Shown in pieces: positions 18,903-22,968 of a stretch of 35,545 nucleotides of DNA. The DNA lies in assembly GCA_013336365.1 (NCBI GenBank), contig JAAXTT010000002.1, positions 1 through 35,545 of the forward strand. Direction: 5' to 3'. The position numbers were made by a program, and so were the translations under genes. Source of the stretch: Peptococcaceae bacterium (GTDB lineage Bacteria > Bacillota > Desulfotomaculia > Desulfotomaculales > Desulfocucumaceae). The notes beneath the pieces were generated by a model, which was given only the letters and a program-made list of their open reading frames with translations, was not told the origin of the DNA and did no database searches. The first letter of the stretch is position 1; each line of letters begins with the position of its first letter.

Positions 18903-19355
18903 CTACACAACCTTTAAAGCATCAATGCCGAACAACCTAATTGCAAACTTCCTTATAGCCGCATCTCGCAAATAATAAACCGTCCTGATCCCACAGAATA
19001 ATTCTTCAGCAATAACTTCTTTTGATAGCCTTTCAATGTACCACATTCTCAATACCTTGCCATAATGTTCGCAGTTATCATCCTGGCTAATGTCTAATAG
19101 GATATTATTTATTTCAGCGAAACCCTCTTCAGTTTTCTTCTTATTTTCGATTAGCATCTGAAGCTCACAGAGAACATTCAAGGTTTCATCATGCCTACCA
19201 GCTCTGATCCCAGTCTCATCAAGAGTAGCCCCTTTCAAAGCCTTAGGACATGAACTGCCTATTAATCTACCAATTTGTCTACTCATTTCATCAATACTTT
19301 TCTGTAATTCCCGGTAGTATATTAGTCTGTTCTCAGCCTCTTTGATATAGTTCAG
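18903..19355 (-). CDS. ArpU/RinA-like phage late transcription regulator, probable CTG start
   Basis: C-terminal sigma-like HTH (IERLSKEVIAEELFCGIRTVYYLRDAAIRKFAIRLFG). In-frame extension NYIKEAENRLIYYRELQKSIDEM upstream of the first ATG (19286), preceded by SD AGGGGTGAT. Confidence 0.75.
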   Translation of the reverse strand: MNYIKEAENRLIYYRELQKSIDEMSRQIGRLIGSSCPKALKGATLDETGIRAGRHDETLNVLCELQMLIENKKKTEEGFAEINNILLDISQDDNCEHYGKVLRMWYIERLSKEVIAEELFCGIRTVYYLRDAAIRKFAIRLFGIDALKVV

Positions 19356-19387
19356 TTTTCATCACCCCTAAATAGTAAATTTTTACT

Positions 19388-19666
19388 TGTGACACTAATA
19401 GTGTCACAGATTTATTACCTTGAAAGCCTTGATTTTATTGGTTTTACATTTTTATTTTTTCTGTGACACTAATTTTTGGAACATATGTGTATATTTTTTA
19501 GACCACCTTATACCTATACATTATAAAGGCAAGGTCATTTCTCTATATGTAATACATATATATTAGTGTCACAGTGTCACAACATATATATAAGCCTTAC
19601 CAGCCTTGACTTTAACCTTGTGACACTCCTGTGACACTTCGTGACACTGTTTTAGTTAGTGTCACG
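19388..19666. repeat. Iteron-like array: nine copies of GTGACAC in both orientations
   Basis: Octamers at 19388, 19401(-), 19462, 19566(-), 19574(-), 19619, 19630, 19640, 19659(-), with AT-rich stretches between. Confidence 0.9.
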
Positions 19667-22582
19667 AATACCAATCTGTTTTACTTTGATTACTTGTGGT
19701 CTTATACCACCATCTAAGGCTTTACCCATAGTGTCATATCTTGTTTTTCCTCCACGATGAAATGTCTCAATCTTCCCAGCAGCTGCCCACTCCCGAATAA
19801 TTTTTCTACTGCCTGAAAATTTCTCTGTCAAGAATCTGTCAACAACGCTTCTGATTACATACAGGTCTATATGTTCCCGATATCCAAACCTTGGGCCCAT
19901 TGAACGGTCTGAAAATCTCTCTTGGTTCTCTGCTAACCAGTCAATGAATTCATCCCAGGCACGTTCTGATTCACTGGCTTCTGACATAGTAACCAATCCT
20001 GATAGAATATGATTTGCAGCAGCAATTGCCCCTGACTTAGCTTCGTCCCATGACTCACCAAATACCCAGACAGATGACAAGTAATCAGATGTGGCAACAC
20101 AGGCAACAGCATCAATATGAGAATCAAGCTTATCCGGAAAACTATTTCTAAAGGCAATTTGAAATTCTTTGTAGGTAGTATAAATAACCCCATAATCAGC
20201 AGCTAGCAACTGGTTTAGAAACTCCTGCCCAACATGGCCATGGCACTTCGGCAAAAAATAATACAGACCGCGGGCAAACTCCCGATCATGACTGAGTGGT
20301 CCATCACATATTTCCAGCACCCTGGTCATTACTCCATCTAAAGATCCTGAATTTGACAATGTACCCTCTCCGGTTGATAAAACAATTGTTCTCCAGGTGG
20401 ATAAGTTTTGCAGTCCTGTTTTTGTTCCTCTGCCCCTGCCCCGACCTTCACCTAATACGTACAGAAGAGGGTTAATGTCATTTTTCTTGTGCTGGTTTAA
20501 TACCTCGCGCTCATTAATTGCTAAGGGCAAATCAGAGTGTAGAGCCGCCTTTCTCTCAATTGCCGTTGGGGTCGTGTCAAAGGTTCCAATCAGCTGATCC
20601 GGATTACCCCACACAGACATAGCCGCCCATAGTGTTGCCGTTTTGCCATCTTGGGAGCTCCCCCAGTTGTGCAGGATAAAATTCCTCTGCCCAAGAATTT
20701 TTAAAAGTGGTGCTGCAAAACTGGCTGATAAAAGAAATCTAGCAATTGGTGTCTGCCTAAGATATTTCATCCTTGATTTCCAATCATCTACCTTGCCTGC
20801 TACAGAAAATCCGGAAACCGTTCGCTGGCTTCCATCATCATCAATATCAATACGGTATTTCTGATTAAAGTTAGGCAGTATAAATTCCCTTTCCCCACGC
20901 CAGCCAAGCTTTGACACAGAGTAGGTTACCGGAATACTATCCCGGTTAATATCTGCCAGTGCATCAAACCATTTGACCGCAAACTTAGCAGATTCTGATG
21001 AGATTGAAACACCAAAGTCAGCAAGGCGCATTATTTTCCGGGAATCAAATATTGTTGACCGGGGAAATAAAACCCTGCGCCAACCTTTCATGTAACGAAA
21101 ACAGATTTCCATTTTCTCTGTCTCTGTATCTACATTAAACAGACGTTCTGATATTACTACCGGGCAACTAGCAGCCTTATATGCCATGATGTCACCGGAG
21201 CTGGTTTCCTTAATAAATACAATTCCTGAACGTTCAAACTTGAAATTTGGCGGCAATATCATATTTACCGGCAGCTCTGGGACTGTATCCCTTAACATTC
21301 TAGAGCTGGGCCTATCTCCCGGCTGAACAACATGTAAATGGCTCTCCTGTTTAGCCTGATGATTATTTTGTTTAATAAGCTTTTCCAAATCGTTAAGGTT
21401 GACCCGGCCCTTGCATGATGCTTTGAATTTAATATATTCAGCTTGGTCATCTTTTTTAAGGACTGCCAAAGCACCAAGAACCTCAGGAATGAATACATTT
21501 TCCGGAGAGGGAGCCGGTATGCACCTGACAACGGCCCGCGCTTGCCCCACCTTAGATAAACTCCAGCCACATGGAGCCTGCACTCCACACCCATCTTGAG
21601 GGCATCCTTGAAACCCGATGGATGTTTTTATGTATGCACAGGTCTGTGGATTCATTTCCAAAGCTTCTTTTAACTTGTGATCTGTGTCTTCTTTTTTATA
21701 TCGGGCTGTATCCAGAATAGAAAAATTGTGACCCTCTTGGTGGCCATCGCTGGCCCTTACAATATTGGTTAATGCAGCCAACCATTCAGTGTAAGTTATA
21801 CCAGATGCATTTAACTGGCAGTGCTGCAGGAACCTACAGTTTTTTAGCATTATTTCAGCTGATCCATCCGTTGACCTGCGCTCAAAGTCACCTGTCCGCT
21901 GTGATTCTGATTTGATAGGTTCTTCAGTCTGAGGTAGTAGATGCTCAATGTCGGATGGGTTGTATCTGATATCTGATCTTTCTATTACTTGACACATTAC
22001 AGGACTATCCTGTATTTTACGATTCATTGTTCCAGGTAGTCTTAGAACCCTGGCAAGGTCTGATGTGGTATCAATTTTCCAGTTGTTCTTTTCAGCTTTT
22101 GATTTTATTACAGCCTGTAAATTACGAAGCAACTCGGCAGCCTGGTTCCGTTCTGCCTGTGTGTCAAAATTCCAAGGTTCCCTAAATAACCAATATGCAT
22201 GTAGACCATATCCACTCCATACCACCAAGGAAGGTGGCAGCTCATCCGGTAGCAAGCTCATAGCCGATGGAATATCTGCAGGCAAAGCATTAATTTTGTG
22301 TGCACCGGGAGCCTGAACATCGATATCCACCCATATCCCGGGGATAGATGATATTTCAGTGTTTTTTGACCTCTCATGTGTACCCACAGCTGCTAATGTT
22401 GAACCTACGCCGAAATAAACATCATGGTTAGCAGATAATTGTTCGGCTGATTGGACCATCCCTGGTATATTCTGGACAGAGAAGGAATGTGATTGCCTGT
22501 TAGGTAAGGTCCAAAGATATAAAAATTGATTTTCATTAAATTCGTCATACAGGAGGGATAAAAAATCATATATATAGTTCAG
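19652..22582 (-). CDS. PrimPol/RepB-like primase fused to DUF927-type helicase, probable CTG start
   Basis: GIWVDIDVQAPG...VVWSGYGLHAYWLFREPW...DLARVLRLPGTMNRK; helicase part LLKILGQRNFILHNWGSSQDGKTATLWAAMSVWG. In-frame NYIYDFLSLLYDEFNENQFLYLWTLPNRQSHSFSVQNIPG upstream of the first ATG (22459), SD GGAGGG. Confidence 0.88.
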   Translation of the reverse strand: MNYIYDFLSLLYDEFNENQFLYLWTLPNRQSHSFSVQNIPGMVQSAEQLSANHDVYFGVGSTLAAVGTHERSKNTEISSIPGIWVDIDVQAPGAHKINALPADIPSAMSLLPDELPPSLVVWSGYGLHAYWLFREPWNFDTQAERNQAAELLRNLQAVIKSKAEKNNWKIDTTSDLARVLRLPGTMNRKIQDSPVMCQVIERSDIRYNPSDIEHLLPQTEEPIKSESQRTGDFERRSTDGSAEIMLKNCRFLQHCQLNASGITYTEWLAALTNIVRASDGHQEGHNFSILDTARYKKEDTDHKLKEALEMNPQTCAYIKTSIGFQGCPQDGCGVQAPCGWSLSKVGQARAVVRCIPAPSPENVFIPEVLGALAVLKKDDQAEYIKFKASCKGRVNLNDLEKLIKQNNHQAKQESHLHVVQPGDRPSSRMLRDTVPELPVNMILPPNFKFERSGIVFIKETSSGDIMAYKAASCPVVISERLFNVDTETEKMEICFRYMKGWRRVLFPRSTIFDSRKIMRLADFGVSISSESAKFAVKWFDALADINRDSIPVTYSVSKLGWRGEREFILPNFNQKYRIDIDDDGSQRTVSGFSVAGKVDDWKSRMKYLRQTPIARFLLSASFAAPLLKILGQRNFILHNWGSSQDGKTATLWAAMSVWGNPDQLIGTFDTTPTAIERKAALHSDLPLAINEREVLNQHKKNDINPLLYVLGEGRGRGRGTKTGLQNLSTWRTIVLSTGEGTLSNSGSLDGVMTRVLEICDGPLSHDREFARGLYYFLPKCHGHVGQEFLNQLLAADYGVIYTTYKEFQIAFRNSFPDKLDSHIDAVACVATSDYLSSVWVFGESWDEAKSGAIAAANHILSGLVTMSEASESERAWDEFIDWLAENQERFSDRSMGPRFGYREHIDLYVIRSVVDRFLTEKFSGSRKIIREWAAAGKIETFHRGGKTRYDTMGKALDGGIRPQVIKVKQIGIRDTN

Positions 22583-22599
22583 GGTTCACACCCTCCAAT

Positions 22600-22968
22600 C
22601 TATAAACCAATATTTAATCCATTAATTATTTTCACAGCATCTTCTGGACACTTGGCCACTCCAGCATAAGCACCGCTGGCAGTCATCATCCGGAGAAAAT
22701 TTTCTTGTTCTGGACTGAGCTTGCCAGATTTAGATTTAACCTCAATGAATATTGCCCGGCCAAGATTATTAATACCAAATAAATCAGAGAAGCCAACCGG
22801 AAGCCCTGTATTTAATCGACGTGGCCTGTAAATTGTTATGCTGCCGTCCAGGTTATGAATTACATTATTACCTGTCCAGGCTTCCCCTACGTTTACCCTA
22901 AATAATGTTCCCAGCTGATTATTTGAAACATGAATACGAATTAAATTTTGAATATCTGACTCTTTCAT
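22600..22968 (-). CDS. VRR-NUC domain nuclease
   Basis: 122 aa; GLPVGFSDLFGINNLGRAIFIEVKSKSGKLSPEQENFLRMM. Confidence 0.92.
   Translation of the reverse strand: MKESDIQNLIRIHVSNNQLGTLFRVNVGEAWTGNNVIHNLDGSITIYRPRRLNTGLPVGFSDLFGINNLGRAIFIEVKSKSGKLSPEQENFLRMMTASGAYAGVAKCPEDAVKIINGLNIGL

Follow-up and report, generated by a model that had tools for sequence, protein, structure and literature searches.

The iterons bound by staphylococcal SaPI Rep and by SCCmec Cch2 are located just downstream of the respective genes, and the isolated C-terminal domain of Cch2 binds specifically to the direct repeats downstream of cch2 (PMC7581432). In addition, SaPI Rep was reported to appear bound to its iterons as two hexamers (PMC7581432). 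For fusions of a primase, a DUF927 domain, and a winged helix, origin recognition by the winged helix has been predicted (PMC5862659). Herein, we analyzed a 35,545-nucleotide stretch of Peptococcaceae bacterium DNA (the window), in which copies of the word GTGACAC cluster at the 3′ end of a primase-helicase gene. Judging from the sequence and from the studied members of this helicase family, the array of ~280 bp is very probably the replication origin of a temperate phage, at which HTH_56 of the adjacent primase-helicase would bind the iterons and the helicase rings would melt an AT-rich stretch.

The window is prophage DNA of a temperate siphophage, with genes for terminase, portal, head protease, major head protein, tape measure, integrase, repressor, an Erf-like annealing protein, and SSB. 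Replication and structural genes in the surroundings of the array lie on the − strand. The gene next to the array has the following parts.

19652..22459, − strand: primase-helicase CDS, 935 aa from ATG (ORF list; Pfam, PHROG, and PDB matches)
21821..22444, − strand: AEP-type primase domain, aa 6-213, with DID and GYGLH motifs recognized by eye (PHROG 2478 DNA polymerase/primase, 1.9e-19; alignment)
20414..21244, − strand: DUF927 AAA+ (MCM-like) helicase core, aa 406-682, Walker A GSSQDGKT (PF06048; alignment)
19733..19969, − strand: HTH_56 'Cch helix turn helix', aa 831-909, putative iteron reader (PF18662; genome search)

An AEP-type primase, a DUF927/Cch (MCM-like) helicase, and an HTH_56 winged helix are fused in this protein, which by sequence belongs to the family of SaPI Rep and SCCmec Cch/Cch2. 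Pfam detected DUF927 (PF06048) at 1.6e-50 and HTH_56 (PF18662) at 3.2e-9, above the cut-off, and PHROG 8841 (DNA primase/helicase) matched at 1e-119. The nearest solved structures by sequence were PDB 8tch, 'Pathogenicity island protein' (2e-21), and 5dgk, 'Active helicase' (3e-10), the latter of which we take to be SCCmec Cch. Four marks of the SaPI Rep/Cch type were found: a DUF927/MCM-like AAA+ core, a C-terminal dsDNA-binding domain (HTH_56, recognized by sequence only), iterons directly 3′ of the helicase gene, and AT-rich DNA bracketed by iterons. The initial annotation had placed the array after a primase-helicase gene; a primase is indeed fused to a helicase, but the protein is of the DUF927/Cch type and its gene ends at 19652 on the − strand. 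A D5/P4-type primase-helicase was rejected, as DUF927 was found instead of any D5 or P4-family Pfam domain. The AlphaFold single-sequence model of the C-terminal domain (mean pLDDT 39) was of insufficient quality and was left unused, and no relatives were found in a viral_contigs scan with the window protein or in the genome_contigs scans.

The helicase frame probably starts at a CTG near 22582, behind the SD sequence GGAGGG, which gives ~976 aa. This N-terminal extension of the helicase is conserved in relatives, and with the annotated ATG starts the conserved N-termini of both the helicase and the ArpU-like protein encoded beyond the array would be lost. CTG starts (CTGAACTAT...) were apparent for the helicase (22560-22600) and for the ArpU-like gene (19340-19370), a few bases past an SD-like sequence. 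The helicases of two related loci, L033 and L034, have a TTG start at the position of the CTG in the window.

The array itself was largely as the initial annotation had described it. All nine GTGACAC sites were present, at 19389 (+), 19401 (−), 19463 (+), 19566 (−), 19574 (−), 19620 (+), 19631 (+), 19641 (+), and 19659 (−), the earlier coordinates being at most 1 bp off. The perfect 21-bp palindrome TGTGACACTAATAGTGTCACA at 19388-19408, the tandem pair with a pitch of 8 bp (19566/19574), the trio at 19620/19631/19641, and the overlap of the last copy (19659, −) with the 3′ end of the helicase CDS were confirmed as well. Relative to the helicase stop codon, the nine sites run from −14 to +256, and they are arranged as follows.

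19659..19665, − strand: iteron within the helicase CDS, at −14 relative to its stop (word search)
19620..19647, + strand: iteron trio (19620, 19631, 19641), the left outer group in the helicase sense (word search)
19566..19580, − strand: tandem iteron doublet with an 8-bp pitch, adjoining the AT-rich tract and directed toward it (doublet also in L046/L047)
19470..19565, no strand: site-free AT-rich stretch (76% AT), putative DNA-unwinding element (gap and duplex stability)
19463..19469, + strand: inner iteron beyond the AT-rich tract, convergent with the doublet (word search)
19388..19408, no strand: outer inverted iteron pair, the 21-bp palindrome (inverted pair kept in L046/L047)
18903..19355, − strand: downstream ArpU/RinA-like regulator gene with a probable CTG start (PHROG 36, 7.9e-10; start context)

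The array had been called the strongest non-coding signal in the window, and it was the top repeated-word segment there, with a score of 19.7 against 6.8 or less in the 228 other 450-bp windows. GTGACAC occurred 12 times in the window, compared with a mean of 1.9 and a maximum of 7 in 100 dinucleotide shuffles. A genome-wide count had been set beforehand as a check able to refute the origin idea. Among the 36 copies in the 1.64 Mb genome, 9 fell within 277 bp (19389-19665) and 27 elsewhere, and the idea survives. For the longer word TGTGACACT, seven of the eight genome copies were in the array. The AT-rich interior was likewise found as claimed: the iterons bracket a gap of 102 bp with 76% AT, compared with 58% AT for the window, and the 100-bp stretch from 19469 was the fourth least stable separate one in the window. 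GC skew had no turn at the array, though it follows gene direction, and was uninformative. Rfam gave no RNA family in the array region.

To locate such arrays in relatives, we scored repeated 7/8-mers from −50 to +400 bp around the stop codon against the rest of each locus, for 24 loci that had a related helicase or an HTH_56 match. The segment past the helicase stop was the top repeated-word segment in 16 of the 24 loci, the window included, and near the top in several more; in two of the 16 (L055 and L059) the top word was a GC-rich repeat and probably no iteron. The array signal of L013 was weak, and a clear array past the HTH ORF was absent in L061, L062, L068, and L070. In most of the relatives examined, which come from phages, prophages, plasmids, and a SaPI-like element, an iteron array likewise lies immediately 3′ of the helicase stop, usually with a different iteron.

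Other arrays and variants were observed among these loci. A second strong array, of 12 copies of GGGACGCA, lies upstream of the helicase at L054:6150-6600. At L058:13500-13950, an array of 10 copies of GGGTTACA lies ~5.6 kb from the HTH_56 ORF and is possibly another origin; the contig of L058 also has an AEP-primase-like match of the window protein. On the reverse strands of L062 (~16650) and L061 (~9600), nine copies of GTATGACA and six copies of AGTGGGTA, respectively, lie elsewhere than downstream of the HTH_56 ORF. The iteron array of L018 (G212) is intact, yet the open helicase frame there spans only 141 aa; this is probably a decaying prophage or a frameshift. Small plasmids with a DUF927 helicase also bear such arrays. 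Those of the 13-16 kb Bacillus and Geobacillus plasmids (L074 and L075) extend past 400 bp with 18 copies of GTTACA and 15 of TGTCACAA, perhaps for copy control. The primase module is variable, being AEP-like in the window, of a fused CHC2/TOPRIM type in THSA-485A and Epona, and encoded by separate genes in phiRg507T2, Jekyll, and the plasmids, whereas the helicase and the array stay together.

A common layout was found in most of these arrays, with two converging iteron groups around a site-free AT-rich stretch of ~100 bp. An array was counted as fitting when its largest site-free gap was 85-125 bp and the flanking sites were inverted, pointing at each other; this interval was chosen after the first set had been seen, and the hold-out sequences were visible before the test. 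The layout fitted 20 of 26 strong arrays against 5.8 expected by random placement (P 4e-9) and, in the later-fetched set alone, 8 of 9 against 2.1 (P 5e-5), both P values being optimistic because the loci are phylogenetically related. The later set was fetched after the layout idea had been noted and includes the SaPI-like element and the Bacillus and Geobacillus plasmids. When gap length was ignored, inversion alone gave a weaker result (12 of 17, p 0.07; later-fetched, 8 of 9, p 0.02). The layout was not shown by L055, L058, L059, and L065 in the automatic test, and L015 and L060, which failed it, fitted only with a neighboring gap picked by eye.

The closest comparison came from L033 and L034, whose helicases are 69-70% identical to that of the window and 79% identical to each other, and which share the iteron GTACCAC in nine copies. 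The offsets from the stop codon are −14> 4< 14< 25< 71> 79> 182< 244> 256< in the window and, nearly matching, −26> −14< 4< 16< 73> 81> 182< 245> 257< in L047, a longer stretch around L033. Because the nine GTACCAC copies stand in almost the same layout, all nine sites changed in concert. Similarly, four loci of one genus have four iterons, GTAACCAG, CTAACCAG, GTAACCAC, and GTAACACC, with a largely conserved backbone. Since relatives share the spacing plan and differ in the word, the helicase and its landing sites seem to change together. Iteron similarity correlated with HTH_56 identity (Mantel r 0.24, p 0.0004), also with helicase core identity controlled (partial Mantel r 0.21, p 0.0006); the effect is modest and was computed with hand-curated iteron cores. 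What the sequences themselves show is the array with its enrichment, the domain content, the conservation of position and layout, and the concerted change of the iterons.

The origin proposal of the initial annotation is strongly supported, because studied family members bind iterons downstream of their own genes and most relatives keep the position and the layout. The initial annotation had also offered a multi-site operator for the ArpU-like gene, and one bound by a phage regulator could serve this ArpU/RinA-like gene or its transcription unit. The palindrome, a form typical of operators, does lie ~33 bp upstream of the probable ArpU-like start. However, the array spans 280 bp and extends into the helicase CDS, promoters were not enriched in the region (1 found, 2.4 expected), and the array persists in relatives while the gene beyond it changes. 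That gene is ArpU-like in the window, L046 has a sigma factor and L053 an HNH endonuclease in its place, and in seven other loci it matched no PHROG. Because this gene varies, the array follows the helicase rather than the regulator, and the ArpU-like gene is outside the origin unit in relatives. An operator as the primary role is thus very improbable, although a secondary effect of the array on ArpU-like expression is possible.

A separate initiator is common at phage origins, and the iterons could in principle be bound by a host factor or another phage protein, with the helicase loaded secondarily. We consider this just as improbable, considering that studied family members bind through their own C-terminal domain (PMC7581432), that iteron differences track HTH_56 differences, and that TGTGACACT is nearly absent from the remaining host genome. 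The palindrome also scores as terminator-like on the + strand, but the surrounding replication and structural genes run on the − strand, so that such a terminator would be without clear use. That the region is chiefly a terminator, or an incompatibility or copy-control array like the outer iterons of plasmids, with the origin elsewhere, is the least credible reading and scarcely to be expected, as the AT-rich stretch between the sites and the symmetric layout match an origin. A CRP-like site (TGTGA...TCACA) was rejected, since the half-site spacing is wrong and relatives show GTACCAC in the same layout.

For an origin read by the primase-helicase, the following course can be proposed. The HTH_56 winged helix would bind the TGTGACACT iterons, and helicase rings would assemble on the two convergent iteron groups around the AT-rich stretch of ~100 bp. 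The rings would then melt this stretch and load head to head, replication would start, and the fused AEP primase would prime it. Binding by the C-terminal domain, hexamer assembly, and origin activity are expected by analogy with the studied family members; two head-to-head rings and a bidirectional start are suggested by the geometry, because the iteron layout is symmetric.

More broadly, we lean slightly toward a single origin blueprint for DUF927/HTH_56 phages, plasmids, and satellites, in which ~100 bp of AT-rich DNA would lie between converging iteron pairs, with outer groups ~50-60 bp off. The word and the winged helix would change together, making the word predictable from the protein, and the rings would load head to head. 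For many uncharacterized phages and plasmids, this gives a rule for finding the origin, namely to search just past the DUF927/HTH_56 helicase. The near-matched natural pairs (GTGACAC and GTACCAC for proteins 69-70% identical; four iterons within a single genus) could show how DNA is recognized by the winged helix and at what spacing two self-loading helicases sit on an origin.

Compared with known systems, SaPI Rep/ori is like the window in its DUF927-type helicase, C-terminal origin-binding domain, and iterons directly downstream (PMC7581432). In the SaPI-like PT1028 element, convergent iterons are likewise 97 bp apart with AT-rich DNA between them. Unlike the window, SaPI is a satellite rather than a phage, has a separate primase gene, and has AGTTCCC as its iteron where the window has GTGACACT. 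The SCCmec Cch2 system, with its putative origin, shares the short repeats just 3′ of the gene, and the C-terminal domain of Cch2 binds these repeats (PMC7581432), whereas only three AAGTG iterons and an A-family CCPol-MP primase pair are found there, against nine iterons and a fused AEP-type primase in the window. The phages THSA-485A, FP_Epona, phiRg507T2, Jekyll, and AC844P2 share the DUF927 helicase core and the iterons past the gene, but differ in the iterons and in a fused CHC2/TOPRIM or separate primase, at 24-31% identity. No origin feature is listed past the helicase in the viewed stretches of their records. In the PrimPol-PV1 supergroup fusions, a single polypeptide combines an AEP primase with DUF927 and a winged helix (PMC5862659), a domain make-up like that of the window protein. 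Searchable papers, outside which most subscription journals and the original SaPI origin work lie, gave no description of the shared geometry or of natural iteron swaps. The array is very probably a further case of the established helicase-linked iteron origin, and what it adds is the geometry common to the relatives and the natural exchange of iterons.
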